Shown: one piece after another, positions 30,755-63,263 of the stretch
Layout: each line of letters begins with the position of its first letter
How positions within the stretch are numbered: the first letter of the stretch is position 1
Assembly: GCA_009869945.1 (NCBI GenBank)
Contig: WIXG01000295.1
Coordinates: forward strand, 1-64,000
Source: Mesaphorura yosii
Lineage: Eukaryota; Arthropoda; Collembola; Poduromorpha; Tullbergiidae
Length of the DNA stretch: 64,000 bases
Direction of reading: 5' to 3'
Notes under the pieces: model-generated
Told to the model about the DNA's origin: nothing
Seen by the model: the letters and a program-made list of their open reading frames with translations, nothing else
Databases searched by the model: none
Made by a program: the position numbers and the translations under genes

Positions 30755-32609
30755 TATTTGTAAGACGGACTTTAAATTTGTGCAAATAAACGCCTAATGC
30801 AAATTTTGTACAGTGTACAATTTTGTAGTACTTGCGTGAACCGGCGAACTCACTCAATTTCATTGAACAGCTTATTGATAAATACGCGTTGTATAGAATC
30901 GTAACTCGTTCTGAGCTTCAAAGTTCGCAATGCGTCTTGCGCGTGCAAAAAGGAGGCAAGAATTCGCAAGCTCAAACATGCACAGTTTTCATCCATTCGC
31001 CCTTTCACGATTTGTGCTTACATGATTTAGGAAGTAGTATAGCTTTAGCATACGAATGAGATAATTTAAATCGCCAATCACCATCATACGAGTACAAACA
31101 AACCTTGCAAATGCATATCACCAGCTTGTCGCAAAGGCACGGTGGTAACACACAGAAAGAGGCCTACTACAATGGAACAGGTGAATCATTTCTGCATAAA
31201 GTCAAGTTGGTATAAAAGCACTGGCAAAGGCAGAACAAAGTAAAAAACTGGATACATTGCTCACTGAACTGCTGTCGTGCCCAACCCAGAGTACGAGGAC
31301 GAGCACGAGAGTCGAATCGACACAGAAACCTTCTGTCTGCAAGTTTGCATGTACTTGCAGTTTATTTACCGGCACAACTTGCGGGCCGGCCCCAGACCGA
31401 CTGTGATTGTCAGTTTTACGTCGTTTTAGTTTTAATTTTAATCGCAGTGATTCAGTTGAAGAACCTCCGTCCTCAATCCAAAAAGCAAACAATTATTGGT
31501 GCTAACACTGGCAAAGTTAAGTGACTGAGTTCTTTGATCAACGTTTTATGCGGATTCACCAAGTGGAATTTAATCAATGTAGGACGTGTTCAGCGTAGAT
31601 GGAAGCCGGCAGTGTTTTAATTCTTAGCTCATTCAATGGGTAAATGAATTGCAGTTCTTGCCTAGCGGTGTAAAGCACGTAAGTAAGAAAAACCATCCAA
31701 TTAATTAATTAGCAGGCTGGTGCAGATAAAGTAAAGCTAAGTTGTAGGCGGATTTCATTTTAGACTTGGCCAAGAATGGCTCATGTCTTCGGTTTAACGC
31801 ATTTTAGTATCTACATCCCATTGTTACATAATTTTCTCACAACCTGTATTATTGAATCACTATTCCATAAAGTACGTATATGTTTTTTGGCCGCTTCAAG
31901 TGTAGGGAGCAGAGCAGTTTTTTTGTAACCTGATGTAAACCCGTTTCCTAGAACCATGAGGCTCGGCTCAAGGTTACCTAAACCGAGAAGCTTTTATCGC
32001 CATTGCATTGTTTGTGCGTGAAACTTTAATAAATGAATCATTCATTTAGTGACAGCCTTGGCCTTGTAGTTGCTGCTATTTTAAATCGCATCATTCTCAT
32101 TCTAGACGTAGCATCGTGTCACAAATTTTATGAGCGTGCATTCGTATTCGGGCCGTGAATGTTCCAACTGGAAGTGCTTTCCATGAAATCGATTTTAAGA
32201 TTTGTCAATGTAATCTAAGGTCATCATTTTTATGTGGGGAAAAGTTTACCTGCACTCCGCACCTCGCCTGTGACTGTGGCCATGCTTGTCGCGCAATGTT
32301 TTTGACAACTTGAAAACGGTCTTATCAAACACGGAAATTAGCTTTTTGTAGACGTGGCTGAAAATAATGTCACTGCATTCATGTACTACGTACGGCTCAA
32401 ATGATGTTGACATTTTCATAATTGGCATACAGGTTGAGTTTCAGAATCCTATCAGATCCAAGCGATAAGAGAGTTAATGCGCGACGCTTTGAGCTCTGTA
32501 TGACTTTGTCCATGCCCATTACGGTGCCCAGTCGGCCATTTGATAGATTTCTTCTATTCCTTTGCAGTGTAGCTCTTCAAAAATTACGACACCGAAACAC
32601 TTCTCCAAC
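30755..32609. other. Intergenic, 5' flank of the PARP gene
   Basis: About 1.85 kb without supported genes; contains the poly(A) signal of the channel gene at 30785 and, at the right end, the probable 5' UTR and promoter of the PARP gene. Confidence 0.45.
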
Positions 32610-35600
32610 ATGGGAAAAGTGAGAAAACCTCGCGCTAACAAGATCGTCGCAGCGAATACAAGCAATGACGCGACCGGGATATCCACATCACCGGAAGTTG
32701 AGAAAAAACCGACCGTGGCTTCATTTGGCAGGGTAGCCCGACGAAACCCGGATGCTAATTCCAGCCCAGGTAATGCACCAAAGCCGCCTCTGGCCAAATC
32801 CAAGCCCGTGACTCCCCAGAAACGTGCGCATGAATCGGATACGAACAACAATGCTAATGCGAAGACGGGACCAGCAAAACGAGTTCGGACTCAGCGAAAA
32901 CCGTACCAAGCAGAAGATCCGATTCCGAAGAAGTTACTTAACCAGTTGTTGGCAACTGATAACAAGGCTTCTTCCAGTAAACCTCCGACCGCTTCGTCAT
33001 CATCAGCTGGAACCGCCCCGAAGCGACAAGACAAAACAAAAGGAAAAGCTAGTCCCAAATCCAACAAATCCAAAGAGAAGACCGGGACGGCAATGGCAAA
33101 TACAAAGAAAGCGGCTGCGCAAGTCGACAAACCAGCTGCAGCGAAGAAAGCAACCACAAAAACTACCCTGCCCGTGAAGAAGCGATTGTCGACTACTTCA
33201 ACGGTCAGCAAATCTAAGGTGAGCATGACCAGCGTCACTGTAGCCGAAACAGACCCAGTTGTAACTACCAGCACCAGCACTAGCAAGAAATCGGCAAGGA
33301 CAAAAGGCAAGGCAAGACAGGACAGTCCTTCCCCCAAACAAGTGCAAGATGACAGGCCTCCGTTCTCAACGTCCACCGAAATTATTCCTCCTCGAATGTG
33401 GAAAACTACATCCAAATCTGTATTGAATCAAGTATCCGCCAGCAGTAAGAATATATCCAAGAAGAAACTGCAGAATCCTGAGCCTACTGCCAGTGCTACT
33501 CCCAAATCTAAACCTACAAAAACGAAATCAAAGAAGCAAAAAGTTGTGGCCGCGGCCTCACTGATCGACATGCTGGAGCCGCCTCCGACGCTTCCGATAA
33601 ACGCCGTTGTCTCGGCTTTGAAGAAGCGAAAGAAGCTGCCGCCTTTACTTTCAAGGCCACACGTGACAGAATACAAAGTCGACCCAACCTTCGACTCTGA
33701 ACTTCCGATGCCATTCATTTCAACCATGGTCCAGTCGAAGCTGCTGATTCGCGCAGTCCGCACTGGGAACATGGCTCAACTTGAGGCTTTAATCCAAGAT
33801 CCTGAACATATTTGCTGCTTTAACATAACGCGAAGCTTGAGCGACACTGAAACCGCGTTTCTCGCAGCTGTGAAAGCTGGCAACGTTCAGGCCATGAAGC
33901 TGGTCCTCCACACCGCGAAAATAGTGAACAAGTTGGGTCCATATCCGGATTTGTTATTGCAGCCCGAATCCACCGGAACACCCTCATACCGCATGTTTGG
34001 GCACGCGATGAGAAACGTGTCCGTTGCTCGTGGCTCGAAAGAAGGTACGAATTATATCCCTAAAATGATTGTCTTAAAATGTGTTCTGAACTTAAGAATT
34101 TCTTCATGTCACAGGAAACGATGCGCTAATCAAAGATGAGAACTTATACCGCGACAAGAGCAAGAATTTCACTCTTCATGAAGCCAACACCACTCTTCTG
34201 CAATATGCGTTAGACAAAGGTTTATCGTGGAATGAAATTACGAAACTGATGCAAGCGAATGATCATGACGGTCAGGAGTCATTGAAACAAAGTGCGCCTT
34301 ATCGGATGTATGACGCAGTTTGCCGAGGTCACGTCGGGTTAGCAGCAGGTTCGCAAACAAAGACTACAAGCTACATGCATGCCGATCTAAAATGTTCGTT
34401 TTTTAAATTTAGAACTTGTGGATATGGGGCTCTCTCGAGGTGGTTATGGATTCAATCAATTACACAAGGAAGCACTAAGCCTCACCGGTGGCACCGCCTT
34501 CACTCCGTTCAAGTCCATTTCAGTCACAAAGAAAGCAATCAATCGTGTAACTCCCGTCCATTGCGCAGCCATCAACCCGGATCCGTACTACATCAAAACC
34601 CTGCTTGGAGTTCGGCAAGAGTACAATGTCCTTGATTTGTTCGGGAGAAGCCCCATTCATTTTGCTGCCGCAAATTCAAAGCCAGCCGTACTAGAATTCT
34701 TGATCAGTCAAGGCATTTCAGTGCTTTTGGCGGACAAAGAGGGAAAGACTCCATTGTACATCGCCGCGGAGTTCGGCCGAGTTGATAACGTGCGAGCCAT
34801 CATAAAGTCACAGCAGCAGTTCGAGAGTGGTGATGCACAGAATGTACCGACAGACTTCAACAAGGATCCGCTTATAAATCGTCCCAATCTCAAGAATGGG
34901 CAGAGCCCAATTCATGTCGCTGCTGAAAAGGGTCATTACGATGTGGTTAATGTGCTTCTGGATTTGGGCGCAACTCCAAATCGAGCACTGTCGGCCCAAT
35001 TCGACAAGTTGACATCTGCTATGATTGCAGCCAAGTTTGGACATTTGAACATCCTGAAGTTGCTGATTGATAAGGGTGAAATTAACATCGAGGAAGGTGA
35101 CAAGCGCGGAAAGACGGCTCTGACACACGCGGTCATCGAAGGGCAAGGCCATGTTGTTTCGTATTTGCTACGTTTGGGAGTGGACAACAAGGTGAAAGAT
35201 ACTTCTGGGAATACGCCGGCACATTATGCTGCTGCATATGGCTGGTACTTCATCTGGAACCTGCTAATGGAATCTGGATGTGATCCAAATGAAGCAAATG
35301 ATTGGAAAATGACGCCAGTGGGCATCGCATTCCTCAAAGGCCACATGGGCTTAGTTGAAGTGATTTTGAAAGAACCTGGAATTGATATCAATGCGCCAAT
35401 TGATGATACAACAGGTAAATGTCTTTTACGAAAATGGAATTACTTGAACAAAGCACGACAATCCGGCAATTAATTAATTCCAATAGGCCGAAATTTGCTC
35501 CTCCAAACCTGCAGCGAATTAAGTCCTTCATTCACTGACAAACTGAAGTTCCTGATTGAGAAGCAAGGAGCGGACTGCCACGCGGTGGACATGGAAAAGT

Positions 35601-38600
35601 GTAACGCGGTATGTTGTCAATAATTATGCACACGGTTTGCGTTTAAGATTTTATGATTTATTGCCAATATCTTTGATTTTAGTTGGGTTTATTGGTGACG
35701 TTGGAAGCGAAGGAACTTGTAAAGAGGATGTTTTGCTATGAATGGGTCCGAAAAGAGCTAGCAAAGGTACGCAGCTATTCAGATTGAGACAGATGAAATT
35801 ATACTCGAAGTTTCCGTACGGCATTTTTCTTTAATTCAGAGCCCGAAACACAAAAAATTTGGGACGAAAGAAAATCCGTTGTTATCTGCTTTAATGCCTC
35901 AGGAATCTTACTCTACTGATTATTCTTATGAAGAGGTACAGTAAAACCTAATTCACAGTTTGTTGTACAGGCTCTGGCGTAAAGTTTACATTTTGGTCAA
36001 CTAATTTTTAGCTCGTAAAGAACCGCACAGCCATTCGTGATGCGGTACTCCTCCTGCTAAAACACGGTTGCAATCCAAATGCAATGAACACCCACGGTGC
36101 ATCTCCAATCAGTATTGCTTACCTGGTTGGATGCACTGAACTCGTTTCATTGTTCCAAGAAAATGGGTTTGGCGTTACAAGCATTCATGTCACGCGTGAA
36201 GGTGACACTATCCTTCACTGCCTCGTCAAACTAATTTGTTCGACAAGACCTACAGCGTATCGCATGCAACTCAAAGATTTTCTACGAAACAACACTACCA
36301 AAGATCCAGCCGTGCTAAAACTATTTCAAGACATGAGCAGGATGCCGAACAAGGCTGGGCAAACCCCGTTGCACCATTTGCTTCAAAATTTTACCGATGC
36401 AAGTCTTCTTGAGAACGCAGCATTGAGAGCCATGAACAACTATTACGAGGAAACGTTGTCATTGCTCGTCAACGACCTAAATTCGGACGTGAACGCCGCT
36501 ACCGCCAATAAAGCAAAAGATTCACCGCTGCATTTGGCTGTCCAACGAGAAACATTTACGATCGAATCAATTCAGCAACTGCTGTCAAAGATGCCTGACT
36601 TGGACTGCCTGAATAATGAATTGAAAACACCATTGGTAGTAGCAATTGAAAACAAGAGGGAGGCAGCTGCAAAGTTTCTCATTCAATCTGGAGCAAATGT
36701 AAACTTCGTCTCTCGAAGACACCAAAACAAATCAATCCTCATCTTGGCCGCTGAGAATTTCTGCAATGAATTCAACATCGTACCAAGTTTGATACAGAAG
36801 AATGTGCAGCTTAACACGTTCGACAACAAAACTGGAAATTCTGTTTTGCATTTGTTGGCGGTGAAACCTAATGTACCAAACGTTGCCGACGCATTCAAGA
36901 AACTAATCGCTGCTGGTTGTGACGTCATGAAGGAAAATGTGCACGGACAAACTCCGCTTCACGTGGTGGTCAATGAAAGAGCAGGCGAAACTGATGTTTC
37001 ATACGACTTGGAAGAACTGATCATTGAAGCTAATCCGAAGTCACTGATTCAGCAAGATGGAAAGGGAAGAACTCCATTACATTACACATTTGTGAAACAG
37101 TCGAAGAAGAGCAAGACCGAATACCCGTTTGCTCCTGCTCCGGATAAACCATTCATAAAGATTGATCCAATTGAATTGGTGGCACTGTTTACCAGATCAA
37201 TGAAGGACTTGGCTGCATCGCCACAATCAATCTTCGCCAAAGACGTTCATGGGGCCACACCATTGCACTACGCCGCCCAGTGTGGGTCAATCATTTGTAT
37301 TTCACTCTTAATTTCTGAACTGAAGGCGAGCAATTCCCGTGCAAGTATTGACGAGCGTGATGAGGAAGGAAATACTGCGTTTGCGCTAGCCGTTTGGAAA
37401 GGCAACGACGGAGCTGCTCTGCAGTTTCAACAGAACGGGGCGGACTTCTTGTGTGCACTGAACACTTACAAACAGCATAAAACCCAACGTCCGCATGAAT
37501 TTGAATGGAGGCACGTTGCACAAGTTCGAGCTGAAACTCAGCGGGAGCTTAAAATCAGCCTCAAGTATCCAATCATTCAAGAAGTGATGAATCAGAATCA
37601 TCAGGGAATCCTTCATTTGATGCTGGAGAAACTGAACATGATGGGCAGCGGTCATGGAATTATTAATGCGGTCGAGGCAGCTCTGAAAACAAAACGATTC
37701 AAATTGGCTCTCAAACTGCTGCACCGAGTAAAATCGTTCAGTAGTTCGTTGCAATCGAAGAGTGCTGGAACCCTTTTCCATGTTATGGGGAAGACAACGG
37801 ACGCGACTCAGCAAGCGGAAGTGGTGCAATCTTTAATATCGAAGAACGTTTCCTTGCAAGCACTCGATGAATTTGGTGCGAATGCAATAATTTACGCTGC
37901 AATTAATTGGAACACGGAACTATGTGAAGAATTCACACGTGTGCTTGGATTGGAGGAAGTGTCAAGAATGAGACCCGACCATTTCCGCAGAACTCCGTTT
38001 TCGGCTCTGTTTTGGAAACTGGTTAAGAAGTTCAAGCAACCTCTTCCGGAAGGGATCAAGACATGGGCCGAAGACTTGCTCCGGTCTGGCGCGTCACCAA
38101 ACGTGCTCACAAGTTACCCAATTGTTTTGTCAACTTCTCCCGGGATTGGCTATCTGCTGATTGACGATAACAAAAACAACCATAACACAATGACTACGCC
38201 TTTGATAATGGCAGTGCTGAGCAGAAACTACGACGCTGTCAAATGGTTGCTGAGTTTGTGTGTATCGGCCGGGGAAGGAAAAATGAAAATTGAGTTGGAC
38301 GCGCAAGATGAGCTGGGAAGAACTGCTCTCATGCACGCCGTAAAATTGGTACATTGCTGCATATACACATTTTGAGTAGTTTAAACTTTATAGAAATATT
38401 AATTTCTTGATTTCACAGAATGATATTAAGATGGTGAAGCTTCTGCTCAACTATCGCGATTACGATGAAGAATTAGACATAAGGCCTTGGTATGAGAGTT
38501 CCCAAAAGAAAAAGAACGCGAAAGGAACCGCTTTCACCGCTATTACCACACCGAGCCTGAAGATTGCGGACGCGAAGGGTTGGACCGTATTGCATCATTT

Positions 38601-41072
38601 GGTTTGTCCTTTGGTGTCATCTGTGGGCCCAATCTGCTACTCTAACAGCTTTAGAATTTTGCAACTCCTTGCCAGTAGTATGGGATTGGAAGGATTGGCG
38701 TCCTTGGATGTTGGAATGCGAAACTCGATTCACTCAGCGTTTGAACTGGTCAAATCAAATTCGAAGTATCAGCCGATCATTGAACAACTTGAACAAATTC
38801 TTCGGATTGCAGGCCACCAAAAGAGTAAACATACGCCGTCGTACGAATTTGTCAGAGTATCACGAGCTGATAATTTCGATCCAGAGTTGGTAGAAGCGGT
38901 CACAAACGATGCCAGCCTTAGTTCACGTGAAATCTTGAAGAAAGTGCAAGGAAACGAAAGCACCGATATGGAAGTCGATAGAGCTCAGCCCAACAACGTC
39001 AAATTCCTACTGAAACCAGATCCCCTCGCCGGGCTTAAGAAGGGACATGCGATCATTATTCAAGACACCACTCAAGACAACCTGCCATTTGATGTTCTTC
39101 TGACGCATGTCGATCTTGCGTACGGGCAGTATGGCCTTTATAATTTCTACAAGATGCAAATGATAAAACAGACCAAAGGCAAAGAGCTCATCTTGCTCTT
39201 CACTCGCTGGGGTCGTGTCGGTGACCAAGGTCAATATCAGAAAACTCCGTTTCCGGACGAAGAATCTGCGATAAAAGAGTTCAAGAAAATATTCCGCGCG
39301 AAAACTGGCAACAACTGGGAAGCGCTGGACCAATTCAAACCCTTGGCAAAGAAGTACAGACTCGTAAACTTGGAACGAAGGAAGGGTGGAAAGGATCAGT
39401 TGAGCAAAGTCAAAGTTGACTTTGGAGTAATTGAGAAAGCCGAGAAGATTCGTTCCAAAATCGGTGATGAGAAGGTTCTCAATTTGGTGAAGAAACTTTG
39501 TCTTGTGCATAAAAAAACCGCGGGCAAGCCGAAAGAACAAGGAGACACCGGCATCGACGAGGAGAATGAAATTGGCCCTGATGTCGTATCAAATGAAAAT
39601 GAGGACCAAGATCTTGTGGTGGATGAAGAAGGGCAGGGAGCAACGACCAGCCTCCAACTACCAGTCATGTCAAGGCCAAATGTTGCCGGTGGAAGTCCCG
39701 AAATCGAAAGGTCATCAGGCTCAAATGAAGATACAGACGCTGTTGAGGAAGAAGAGGAAGAGGAGGAAAATGAGGATTATAAGGAAGGGTCTGATTTGCC
39801 TCTTGCACTGTTGAACAAGGAAGTATTAGAGAAAGGTGAGTCCAGAACCTCAAACAAAATTTCAGTTACCATTCTTTTCATGCGATACTAACATTTTCCT
39901 TGTGATTTGCAGGCAATGAAATTCTTAACGAGATATCGGAGCTCGTACTGCGAAAAGGAAAAATGCAAAGCAAACAGAATGCGGACACAAGCAATAATGA
40001 AGAATACACAGAAATTTACAACTCTTTGATAAAGCTAAGTGAAGAATATTTCTCGTTAATTCCGGTCCGCGGATTTTCATTTGAGAGAATCGAACCAGTA
40101 TTTGACGTGAACAAACTACGCGAAACTCAGCTACAAATTCATCATCTCGTTCACCTCGAGTATGCCACAAAGGCTCTTCTTGGTTCGCAGCTGAGGGCGA
40201 ACGCAATCAACCCGTACGATTATGTCTACAAGAGTCTAAGTACAAAGATCGAGGTATTGGATCCTAACACTGACGAAAGTCAACTGATTCTTCAATACAT
40301 TCACAATACTGGTGGCTCCAAGCCGCCAACCGTGGAGGCTTTGTATCGTGTGGAGCGACATGATGAAATGAGAGCCTTGAAAGAAACAGGAATTGATAAC
40401 CGCTGGCTGCTCTGGCATGGTACAAGCGCGAAAAACGTTCTAAGTATTTTGCACAGCGGGCTGCAGGCTGTGCCACTTGGTGCTAGGTTGAGTGGATCTG
40501 CATTTGGCAAGGTAAGATATTGTGCAATTGGATTGGTTAGGCTCTACCGTTCTTCGCGAGAACCCGTACTATAATGTCTTCTTTCTGTTCTATCTCGTAG
40601 GGAATTTATTTCGCGGACATGTTTGAGAAGAGCAATAACTTCTGTTCCAACGATGACCAGACAGGGGACTCCTCCAAATACATGCTCCTTTGTGAAGTTG
40701 CGTTGGGCAAATTCCAAGATGTGAGTGTTTCCCGAATATATGGAAGTACGTATGACACCGTGGATCCAGAGTTCAACAGTTTTAAAACATGCGATTCAGA
40801 GTATGAGCCAGATCCCGGGACGACCATCTTCTGGAACGGTAATTTGCCTGCCGAAGTCTTAGCATTGCAACACAAAGAAAGGTACTTCTCTATAATTGGT
40901 CTACCTTTCTACAGGGCGTCATGTTCCATTGGGACAGAAGACAAAGTACTTTTTCGAGCCGAGGACGAATGAAGATGACCCTTACTTGTATTACGGGTTG
41001 GACTATAATGAATACGTGGTGTTTAATCCCAATCAAGTTTGTCTGCGATATTTGGTACAATTTCACGACTGA
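32610..41072 (+). CDS. Ankyrin-WGR-PARP poly(ADP-ribose) polymerase (tankyrase/PARP1 hybrid)
   Basis: Nuclear enzyme that transfers ADP-ribose from NAD+. Eleven exons: 32610-34044, 34115-34348, 34413-35414, 35487-35608, 35683-35766, 35840-35935, 36012-38348, 38419-39835, 39913-40511, 40601-40838, 40915-41072; 2573 aa. Residues 1 to about 350 are Lys/Ser/Thr/Pro-rich, AT-hook- and NLS-like (GPAKRVRTQRKP). About residues 390-1900 hold many ankyrin repeats (GRSPIHFAAANSKPAVLEFL, GQSPIHVAAEKGHYDVVNVL, GNTPAHYAAAYGWYFIWNLL). The WGR domain contains LFTRWGRVGDQGQYQ, with Trp near 2034. An acidic Glu/Asp linker (about 2210-2235) leads to the helical regulatory domain (IYNSLIKLSEEYFSLIPV). The catalytic domain has RWLLWHGTSAKNVLSILHSG, GIYFADM and LDYNEYVVFN: His, Tyr and Glu of the H-Y-E triad all present, so polymer-forming activity is expected. 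The last intron donor is AACG/GTAATTTG; reading through it gives a false end. The layout matches nematode PME-5-type enzymes as I recall them. Poly(A) signal 41365-41370. Confidence 0.93.
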
Positions 41073-59547: not shown

Positions 59548-62500
59548 ATGATCTCAGCAACCTCAAACACATCGTCCGTTTCCTCAGAAGACTGGTCCGC
59601 TTGCTCCAAATGGCTAACCAAGATTGGGCTTCTCCCACCGGATCACCGAGCCCATGAATCTGTTCGCGACCTAGCAATTGTTCTTCGCGATGGTGTGCAA
59701 CTCTGTCGGCTCGTCAATTTGCTTCAACCAGGGTGCTTGGATATGCGAGAAATTAGTCAACGGCCTCAAATGGCCCAGGTAAAAATAATATACTACAACT
59801 GACAATTAAGTACATGAGGTCTTTGATGTAATTAGTAAAATGAATGTTCCAGTTTCTCTGTTTGCGAAACATCCGGTCGTTTCTTCAAGTATGTCGTAAC
59901 GTGTTTGAGCTGAAAGAAGCTGACCTGTTCCAACCTTCAGAATTATTTGAACTTTCGGACTTTGGTAAAGTTTTGGCTACGCTCAGCAAGCTCAGCTGCA
60001 CTGAGAAAGGCGGTGGAGGGTTCGTGAGGTAATCGCTTTAATTTGCATGAGTTAATTATCTTTTGATAATCTAAAGAAAGTGGGGCAGTGTAACGAGGCT
60101 AACTGTATTTCTACTACGAATATTTGAATTATCTGTCAAAGTAGGCAGGGACACTAAAATGCGTAGCAATAAGTCTAATCGATCTTTTACAAATTCTTAT
60201 AGTGCGTCAAGTCCAACTGCAATTACATTCCAACCCAGCCGAGAAAGTCAGCTGGAATCACTGCTCGATGAGGAAAGACCAAGCACTTACGCGTAAGCAA
60301 TTTAATTATGGTTTTATTCGCTCTAACTTAACTCATTTATGCCGGTATTCCAAAGTGATGGAGTGAGCGATGAGCAAATGTTTCGCACCGAGAACGAGAG
60401 CATTTACGAAGAGCTCTGCTACATTAATTTTCAAATTCCGAACCAGGTTTGCAATTTGCGAACACTTATCGATGTCGTAATTGTCATTGTCTTGTATGAA
60501 TTCGCTTTTTGTGTCATTTGCTTTGCTTTGCTGTTGCCCAGAATTCGGCATTCGAATAAGTGTCGATGATTTATGATTTTGTAAATCATGGGCGCTTGAA
60601 CAAAGAGTCCTTTTCCAATCTCCATATTCTACTAAGATTCATGTTTTGCAGTCTCCAACCCGAATATGATTACTATTATTCGACAATCGAGTCTTCATCT
60701 CGGGAAGAAGATATTTACCAAGATCTTTGCTACATTCACCATTCGCAAGTATTGCTTTCTTTGTTTTTGTTTTGCTCAATGTTCAGTGTTATGTTCGCAC
60801 TCACATTTGGTAGCTCACAATTTTTTACTTTCTATTAATTAGACTCCAGTGACCCCGAAGGAGGGCAGAGATCATGTGAAAGACGAACTACTTGAAACGG
60901 AGACTAATTACGTTGAGGCTCTAAATATGCTCAAGAAGAAATTTGTCAGGCCTCTCAGCAGCATACTCAAAGAAGAAGAGCGAAAAGTTGTGTTTTTCGG
61001 AATTAAGGTGATCTGCTGAATAAACTAATCGTATGGATGAATTGCAATTTTTGTTGAAACCCTTGCATTTTGTACAGGAATTAAGCGAGATTCATTCCGG
61101 CTTCCTTTCCGACTTGAATCGCTTCCTTCAAAATAGTTCTTATGCTTCCGGTCATTGTAAAACTATTGGCGACCTCTTCAGCCATTGGAAAGAGAAGTTC
61201 ATAGTCTATGGGGATTATTGCGCCAACCTCACGAGGGCACAAGGTTTGATAGAGGAACTTGGTGCCAAAGAAGGAATCGGTGCGGAAATTGCCGTAAGCA
61301 TGAAATAATGAAATAAACTTTGTCGCGAAATCAGGAAAGGATTAAAAGAGTCAACGTTAATATATTGTTAGAAATGTGAACGTGAAGCCAATGGTGGACG
61401 CTTCAAACTCCGTGATTTACTTTCAGTGCCAATGCAACGAATTCTCAAGTACCATTTGCTCCTGAAAAATTTGCTCGATAAAACTAAAGTTGTAAGTTTA
61501 ATGCTATACAGATGCATATTTCAAAAATTTCAATGGCCTCTGTCGCTGTCGCATAGGAGTTACATGGATTCGACGAATATAAGTCAATTGAAAGAGCTTG
61601 TCAGGTCATGGCCGATGTTGCTGAATTCACAAACGAAGTCAAGAGAGACAGCGAAACGTTGGCTATCATTAGGCAAATTGAGGTGAAACTTGAGCATGCA
61701 ACTGTGGTCGTATTGACCTCACACAATCCTGATTCACATTTCCAGGGATCAATCTACGATCTCCGAATGCCCGAAGGGTGGCAGCTTTCGGATTATGGCC
61801 GCTTGCAAAAGGACGGAGAGATCAAGATTCGTGGACATGATGACAACCGCGTGAAGTCCCGCTATGTCTTTGTCTTTGACAAAGTGATGCTGATGTGCAA
61901 GAGCACAAGGGTAAGACGAGATATTCTCTGCTGCTTATCAGTCGTAATCGGTGCTAACTTTAACGTTGATCTTCATTGTTTTCTGGTGCTTTCGTTCGTG
62001 TTTAGATGATGGACAAATTGTTGAGGGTAATTTCATTTAAAAGAACTCTCATTGTCTGTGTTATGTTAGTTAGTATCGTGAATAGCTAACTGTGGTAGCT
62101 TTCTTTGTGAGTTTTGACTGGGATAAATGGTACCTATCGCGATTTACCCGAGAATTCAATGACATTCGTCTATTGCCTATGCTGGCTTAATCGTTATTGT
62201 CTCTACACTTTAGGGAAGAAACAGAATGCTTTTAATTGAATGTTGCATCCCCCGTGCTGTGTATGGCATTTACGATTTACTTATATCTTGACAATGCGTT
62301 TTAGGGAGAAGCCTACTCATACAAGCACTCATTATGTCTACAAGAATATCACGTCGAAGAGCTCCCGCCCGATTCGGCGAAAAAATTATATGGGTTCAAT
62401 CTTGTCCATCATCTTCAGAAAAACGTGTACACGCTTCTGGCTCCTAGCGAACAAGAGAAAAGGCGTTGGATTAACGCTGTTGAAGATGCTTTGTACGTCA

Positions 62501-63263
62501 GCGTAGTAAAACACGCAGTCGAAATTATCATTGAAAGGCCTATTTAATTTTTAGATCCAACATTTCTCCACTGGAGGCGCGTCATACGAACCATCTTTTT
62601 AGTATGCACACTTCCGCTCAAGGCGCCTTCTGCGACGTTTGTCATCTATTCCTGAAAGGCCTATTCTACCAAGGCTATAAATGCATCAAATGCTCCATTA
62701 CGGTTCATCAAGCTTGCATTTTAACCGCTCCGTCTTGTGGCACCACCCCTGCTCCCAGTCTTCCGCCCAGACCGGGCACTCTCCTGCCACAGAGTGCACA
62801 GAAACAAAATGATGTGGCAAAGGAGACTCCGATTGAAGCGAATTACATGAATCTGAGTCTACAGGCATATTCGTGGTACGCTGGAGAAATGGAGAGAGAC
62901 GAGGCGACAGCTGTTTTGAGCCCACAGGAGAATGGAGCATTCCTTGTGCGACAGCGCCCAGGTTGTGGGACTGATAAGAGCTTCGCGCTCAGCCTAAAGT
63001 AAGTATTGGCATTCGATGAATAGGGCTCCTCAGCCCGAAATTACTTGCTAATTAACAGAGGTTTTGTGTGTGATTACAGATGGGCTGACGGCGTAAAACA
63101 CATGAAAATACTTCAAAGCCAGGAAATGTTTTATCTTTCAGAATCCAGATACTTCAAATCCATTGTTGAACTCATTCATTGGTATAGTGTCAATTCTCTT
63201 GCAGAGAGTTTCAGCGGGCTCGACGCCTGTCTAGAAACTCCCTTCGAGCTACCTCCTCTGTGA
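59548..63263 (+). CDS. Vav: Vav Rho-family guanine nucleotide exchange factor
   Basis: Tyrosine-kinase-regulated GEF for Rac/Rho. Main exons: 59548-59778, 59853-60028, 60203-60292, then either 60356-60446 or 60652-60748, then 60843-61007, 61078-61293, 61372-61491, 61557-61682, 61746-61910, 62305-62492, 62555-62998, 63080-63263; 731 or 733 aa. Domains: calponin-homology (residues 1 to about 130; [31 protein letters not shown]), acidic/tyrosine linker (about 166-196), DH (about 205-400; [33 protein letters not shown]), PH (about 410-525; [17 protein letters not shown]), C1 zinc finger (about 540-590; [18 protein letters not shown]), SH2 (about 620-715; [20 protein letters not shown] with the key Arg). 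It ends ELPPL at a true stop with AATAAA at 63277-63282; no SH3 follows. Microexon candidate at 62006-62026. Confidence 0.95.
60356..60446 (+). other. Vav: Vav alternative exon 4a (regulatory Tyr segment)
   Basis: 91 nt, enters at phase 2 and leaves at phase 0. Acceptor CCAAAG, donor GTTTGC. Encodes [17 protein letters not shown], with the IYE(E/D)LCY motif of the Vav autoinhibitory tyrosine. Confidence 0.8.
60652..60748 (+). other. Vav: Vav alternative exon 4b (regulatory Tyr segment)
   Basis: 97 nt, same entry phase 2 and exit phase 0 as 4a. Acceptor TTTTGCAG, donor GTATTG. Encodes an extra Tyr cluster (EYDYYYS) and [15 protein letters not shown]. Joining 4a to 4b instead would give a frame with a stop within six codons. 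Confidence 0.8.
62006..62026 (+). other. Vav: Candidate 21-nt Vav microexon in the PH domain
   Basis: Within the 394-bp intron between PH exons. Acceptor GTTTAG and donor GTAATT flank 21 nt (seven codons, MMDKLLR) which keep frame from CKSTR to GEAYS. Confidence 0.35.

Follow-up and report, generated by a model that had tools for sequence, protein, structure and literature searches.

The Vav gene of the springtail Mesaphorura yosii contains two neighbouring exons, 4a and 4b, that probably arose long ago by tandem duplication of the exon for the DH-blocking segment and that would be used one at a time. The gene is complete and lies at the end of the window, by which we mean the whole stretch of DNA analysed (64,000 nucleotides, positions 1 to 64,000 of contig WIXG01000295.1), with its stop codon at 63261-63263. 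The features discussed below are collected in Table 1.

Table 1. Position and properties of the Vav gene, of exons 4a and 4b with their neighbours, of two rival exon boundaries and of two hairpins (positions in the window)
Feature	Position	Strand	Properties
Vav gene, ATG to stop	59548..63263	+	CH, acidic region, DH, PH, C1, SH2; Pfam, PDB match, open isoforms
Exon 3, start of acidic region	60203..60292	+	ends in phase 2 (...RPSTY + GC); donor CGC/GTAAGC, 6.5 bits; sole tyrosine Tyr165
Exon 4a, 91 nt	60356..60446	+	phase 2 to 0; Tyr183 = Tyr174 of Vav1; acceptor -1.2 bits, donor 5.1 bits
Rival longer 3' end of 4a, in-frame junction with 4b	60447..60493	+	donor CTT/GTATGA, 2.8 bits, below 39/39 curated
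7-bp hairpin whose base includes the GT of the 4a donor	60447..60463	+	possible masking; first 20 intron nt fold at -7.1 kcal/mol
17-bp hairpin in the 4a-4b intron	60557..60598	+	-19.2 kcal/mol; z -5.1; 0/200 dinucleotide shuffles
Exon 4b, 97 nt	60652..60748	+	phase 2 to 0; Tyr188 = Tyr174 of Vav1; acceptor 5.3 bits, donor 0.3 bits
Rival short 4b, would join 4a in frame	60692..60748	+	acceptor TCGAG/TC, -5.3 bits, below 39/39 curated
Exon 6, common to both forms, start of DH domain	60843..61007	+	phase 0 start; Pfam RhoGEF, PDB alignments; acceptor 5.1 bits

A Single Vav Gene with the Domain Order of the Family

Five stretches of the gene were searched against Pfam, and CH, RhoGEF, SOS1_NGEF_PH, C1_1 and SH2 were matched; the order CH, DH, PH, C1, SH2 of the Vav family is present, and the best match of known structure is Vav. 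The 4b isoform aligns from CH to C1 with PDB entries 6nf1 and 3ky9, which we take to be human Vav1, at E = 1.4e-102 (347.6 bits), and the 4a isoform does so at E = 6e-102 (345.4 bits), the match spanning residues 12 to 593-595. A second Vav copy was sought throughout the genome (93,006,257 bases in 1127 contigs) with the DH exon and with exon 4a as queries, and only one match was found for each.

A search of the genome for SH3_1 (E up to 0.1) gave 67 matches, none of them on the 99,528-base contig that bears Vav. Going by this search, the clamp by a C-terminal SH3 that is known from Vav is probably absent here, in which case the clamp formed by CH and the acidic region would probably carry the regulation of Vav alone. 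Some members of the Vav family lack one or both SH3 domains, and SH3 is thus not strictly defining (PMC6562523).

Some further details of the gene were seen outside the exon pair. In the PH domain, a 21-nt in-frame microexon (62006-62026, MMDKLLR) has a strong acceptor (8.2 bits) and a strong donor (7.1 bits); Vav1 has an 8-residue gap at the same place, and the exon may be optional or constant. An intron of 278 nt lies directly 3' of this microexon. Past the Pfam SH2 match, the product continues for 25 residues (63080-63263).

Two Exons that Can Replace Each Other in Frame

Exon 3 leaves two bases of a codon at position 60292; either 4a or 4b brings the third, and each of them ends on a codon boundary. 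Messages with a single one of the two exons are open from the ATG at 59548 to the stop, encoding 738 aa with 4a and 740 aa with 4b. Joining 4a to 4b by the standard sites yields SPTRI and then TGA at the sixth codon, which is codon 202 of the message, and skipping of both exons yields ALQ and then TGA at the fourth codon; with standard sites, joint inclusion and joint skipping therefore break the Vav frame. Compared with the published description of exclusive pairs, 4a and 4b are alike in length (within 20 aa; PMC3228551), in frame and in their GT/AG borders.

Both exons encode the motif IY-x-(E/D)-LCYI, as SIYEELCYI in 4a and as DIYQDLCYI in 4b, and 4b adds EYDYYY, with four further tyrosines at 171-175. 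The original prediction, made from this DNA, had described the coordinates of the two exons, their phases (2 to 0), their motifs, the YYY cluster of 4b and a TGA within six codons of a 4a-4b junction, all of which are confirmed in the sequence. Its claim that exactly one of the exons is usable goes too far: joining by standard sites does run into a stop, but on paper two in-frame paths through weak sites would bring both motifs into one protein.

Similarity of 4a and 4b

The two exons share a common core of 24 nt that is 88% identical, and the best local BLOSUM62 score of this core is 46. Dinucleotide shuffling of the 396 nt that follow 4a (2000 rounds) gave at most 39, and so did 1320 other tiles of 396 nt, so that 0/2000 and 0/1320, respectively, reach 46. 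When the exons are aligned globally the score is 24, which is reached by none of the 21,275 decoy exons (maximum 21) that were drawn from both strands of 264 kb and had to agree in phase and length, to be bordered by AG and GT and to keep an open frame. Relative to a self score, this global score amounts to 12-23%, the value varying with the gap cost and with the exon that serves as reference, and the published cut-off of WebScipio for homology is 15% of the self score (PMC3228551). The closeness to this usual threshold would allow an intronic frame that resembles exon 4a by chance; such an accident is extremely improbable, as not one of the shuffles, tiles or decoy exons was as good. By the published sequence criteria, the Vav pair agrees in length and frame and is borderline in homology.

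Within 60293-60842, the 24-nt core is the only ungapped direct repeat of at least 10 nt that was reported. This suggests an old duplication in which both cores were kept by selection, and this scenario would best explain the likeness of the two exons.

Both Exons Encode a Counterpart of Tyr174

Residues of Vav1 were numbered as the position in the PDB chain minus 3, with the E of ELWRQC, at chain position 5, presumably being residue 2 of Vav1. In the chain so numbered, Tyr142 lies in DEDIYSGL, Tyr160 in DEDLYDCV and Tyr174 in GDEIYEDL, with the spacings of 18 and 14 that the names require. The tyrosines of SIYEEL in the 4a form and of DIYQDL in the 4b form both align with Tyr174, and, counted to its first residue, the DH landmark TE-x-x-Y follows the motif tyrosine at a distance of 32 residues in the 4a form, 29 in the 4b form and 31 in Vav1. 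Tyr174 within IYxxL ahead of DH, a feature of the Vav1-type switch, is thus present in both isoforms. A reading of IYxxL as Tyr160, with Tyr174 lost, is ruled out by the chain numbering (IYEDL is 174, LYDCV 160 and IYSGL 142).

Near the position of Tyr160, the 4b form has a tyrosine of the YYY cluster, which is the third in the PDB isoform alignment and the middle one in another alignment; in the 4a form, Tyr165 of exon 3 is aligned in one alignment and is one position off in the PDB isoform alignment. A counterpart of Tyr142 was not found: it aligns with the Glu of QLESLL in the 4b isoform alignment, and exon 3 has no tyrosine except Tyr165.

Tyr174 holds the DH domain shut and its phosphorylation frees DH (PMC12475976), and phosphorylation of Tyr142, Tyr160 and Tyr174 is sequential (PMC6767298). 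Section 5 of a review of Vav family evolution mentions losses of sites 541 and 836 and none of 142, 160 or 174 (PMC6562523). The original prediction had assigned the motif tyrosine to the blocking of DH, which agrees with its alignment to Tyr174 in both isoforms and with the role given for Tyr174 in PMC12475976.

Splice Sites, Introns and Alternative Readings of Exon Use

We scored splice sites against a species-specific set of 39 introns, of which 31 are from five neighbouring conserved genes and 8 are Vav introns away from the pair. Introns of the neighbouring genes were obtained from spliced alignments to five conserved proteins; 33 were found, and 2 were dropped, both from ATP9A and both ending in GAG, one of them lying within an unbroken frame and the other being ambiguous by 6 nt. 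Both introns flanking the microexon and all introns touching 4a or 4b were kept out of the training set. The leave-one-out medians are 6.8 bits for donors and 5.8 bits for acceptors.

Each of the two exons has one very weak site, the acceptor of 4a being lower than 39/39 curated acceptors and the donor of 4b lower than 39/39 curated donors. The opposite sites are better, the acceptor of 4b being ordinary (it exceeds 14/39 curated acceptors) and the donor of 4a exceeding 6/39 curated donors. One weak site per exon fits regulated exons as well as it fits a decaying one. We enumerated 685 open paths between exons 3 and 6; the 15 best reach 23.2-27.4 bits, none of them is a single-exon path, and each includes at least one stretch without homology and sums over three or four introns. 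The single-exon paths, with two introns each, sum to about 15.5 bits for 4a and about 17.2 bits for 4b. The splice scores alone thus single out no exclusive path and do not prove exclusive use.

The intron between 4a and 4b is 205 nt long, and an exclusive message would require the removal of an intron of 359 or 396 nt. Among the curated introns, 38/39 are 60-113 nt long and one is 174 nt, while the 278-nt intron beside the microexon lies outside this set; the greater lengths around the exon pair were counted in favour of exclusive use.

To measure the coding signal, we trained a codon score on 6600 nt that are unambiguously coding. It is +11.2 bits for 4a, +2.4 bits for 4b (+3.4 for the first 13 codons and -0.9 for the rest) and +2.7 bits for the extension of 4a. 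Exon 3, which is surely coding, scores +4.8 in its own frame against +5.8 and +11.6 in the other frames, and because it scores better in the wrong frames, the codon test is weak here.

It is conceivable, if quite unlikely, that the gene is constitutive and carries both motifs in one protein, with two IYxxL in a row before DH, either by extension of 4a to the donor at 60493 and joining to 60652 or by joining of 4a to the acceptor at 60692. Both paths are open and in frame, the codon score of the 4a extension makes codon usage compatible with coding, and the acidic region of Vav1 has several such motifs, DIYSGL (142), DLYDCV (160) and EIYEDL (174). Vav of the fly also has two such motifs, which we counted in favour of this arrangement. 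The acceptor at 60692 and the donor at 60493, however, each fall below all 39 curated sites. The former has -5.3 bits against 5.3 bits for the acceptor at 60652, and it has G at -3, which is found in 0/39 kept acceptors (2/41 if the dropped introns are counted). By these scores, 60692 is rejected fairly well and 60493 is unlikely. Moreover, the extension of 4a would put the hydrophobic LIDVVIVIV into the acidic region, and the global alignment with Vav1 gains nothing when the short 4b is added (its score is then 20, while 4a has 30 and 4b has 27).

A second possibility, also unlikely, is that only one of the exons is productive, the other either decaying since the duplication or serving as a poison exon, by which the Vav level would fall when both are spliced in. 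The very weak acceptor of 4a and donor of 4b would be expected from such a state, as would the little coding signal in 4b. Against this, both frames are fully open and the IYxxL core is present in both at nearly its native distance from DH; the lack of reported similarity outside the core is also as expected if both exons were selected. Taken over the sequence evidence as a whole, mutually exclusive use of 4a and 4b appears to be the best reading.

With 7.7 bits, the acceptor at 60542 has the highest score in the region; it stands behind a pyrimidine-rich tract within the 4a-4b intron. It lies 95 nt past 4a, which is a normal intron length, and in the frame of 4a it leads to TAA at the sixth codon; this acceptor is possibly a decoy or belongs to a poison exon.

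RNA Hairpins Between the Exons

Two local hairpins were found in the 4a-4b intron (Table 1). For both, windows were picked after the intron fold had been viewed, so that their z-scores are optimistic, and the whole 205-nt intron has a fold z of only -1.7. In the fold of the first 20 nt, the intron at the 4a donor is more stable than the strongest of the 39 curated introns (-3.9 kcal/mol). With flanks included (-7 to +24, that is, 7 exon and 24 intron bases), 2/39 curated donors fold better than the 4a donor; its hairpin has a z of -2.4, with 5/200 shuffles as good. It is possible that this hairpin masks the 4a donor. The 17-bp hairpin is single-copy, its sole genome match being itself; 51 of 10,901 windows fold as well, as do 4 of 2875 GC-matched windows of 53 nt, its own included. 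No long-range pairing beyond chance was detected among the three introns (104, 179 and 87 of 200 mononucleotide shuffles were as good). The original prediction had asked for a check of RNA pairing elements between the exons; this check gave local hairpins and no long-range pairing of introns beyond chance.

Other Genes in the Window and Genome

At 32547-40969 of the window, inspection by eye showed a long gene whose product would have ankyrin repeats and end in a PARP-like C-terminus. Elsewhere in the genome there are 12 matches to DIOX_N (contigs C759, C614, C382, C651, C1065, C722, C764, C420, C63 and C118), three of them with internal stops, which represent a family of isopenicillin-N-synthase-like genes in an animal genome. 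Isopenicillin-N-synthase-like enzymes, with DIOX_N, are carried by springtails, and the 12 matches agree with a springtail origin of the DNA without proving it.

Comparison with Known Systems

Exclusive tandem exons are a well-described kind of gene structure (PMC3228551; PMC5740500; PMC9741552). As in Dscam, Mhc and others (PMC3228551; PMC5740500), the Vav exons are neighbouring, homologous, similar in length and of the same phase. In human exclusive clusters, lengths are indivisible by three such that joint inclusion breaks the frame in 377 (60%) (PMC5740500), and the same is seen for 4a and 4b. On the fly X chromosome, just 90/16180 (0.56%) of non-exclusive exons match a neighbour in length and frame and are homologous to it (PMC3228551), and this background rate of look-alike neighbours was counted in favour of an exclusive pair. 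The Vav pair differs in that its likeness is confined to a short core. It also belongs to a regulatory linker, in contrast to the human exclusive regions, 87% of which sit within secondary structure (PMC5740500).

The exclusive pair of FYN (FynB/FynT), whose use is tissue-specific (PMC9741552), likewise concerns an enzyme of a tyrosine-kinase pathway and alters a linker beside the catalytic domain. FYN is a kinase, however, in which the paired exons span the SH2-kinase linker and the ATP site, whereas the Vav exons would each carry the phospho-tyrosine plug of a GEF. With the acidic-region switch of Vav1 (Tyr142, Tyr160 and Tyr174), the gene shares the order CH, acidic region, DH, PH, C1, the spacing of the Tyr174 IYxxL (29-32 against 31) and a tyrosine near the position of Tyr160 in both the 4a and the 4b form; it differs in having the Tyr174 segment in two exchangeable versions, in lacking a counterpart of Tyr142 and in that its contig gave no match to SH3_1.

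Among the papers listed by full-text searches, no title or abstract opening reports an exclusive exon pair in Vav, which is in line with the original prediction, whose author knew of no such case. The papers listed on Collembola and exclusive splicing, by titles and abstract openings, likewise include none on Vav, and Vav is not named in the main text of PMC9741552.

Proposed Mechanism and Implications

We propose that the spliceosome would join exon 3 to either 4a or 4b and that messages with both exons or with neither would be lost through their early stops. The choice is probably regulated, as suggested by the weak site on each exon and by the two hairpins in the intervening intron. By analogy with Vav1, the chosen segment would plug DH in unphosphorylated Vav, and phosphorylation of its tyrosine would open DH; since I, Y and L of IYxxL are kept in both exons, both can be expected to plug.

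The plug of 4a would be ENESIYEEL, with one neighbouring tyrosine (165) near the position of Tyr160, and that of 4b would be REEDIYQDL, with the YYY cluster near this position. The 4a exon thus has YEEL at its tyrosine, and 4b has a more acidic lead-in (REED) and its additional tyrosines. The YEEL of 4a is close to YEEI, the ligand of the Src SH2 domain. Different kinases or thresholds for the 4a and 4b forms are plausible, and with such differing surroundings of the plug, splicing would determine the kinases by which Vav is opened and the number of phosphorylations that this takes.

We put forward tentatively that splicing may pick the autoinhibitory plug itself: the Tyr174 segment would come in two versions, only one of them with densely clustered tyrosines, in a Vav without Tyr142 and SH3, and the choice alone might set the kinases and the number of phosphorylations that open this Rac activator. 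Vav is a textbook example of a GEF that a tyrosine segment keeps shut until phosphorylation opens it, and a natural pair of plugs would make it possible to ask directly how the sequence of the plug sets basal activity, kinase choice and threshold. An exclusive pair would add splicing-based tuning to a switch that has been set since choanozoans, according to a 2019 review (PMC6562523).
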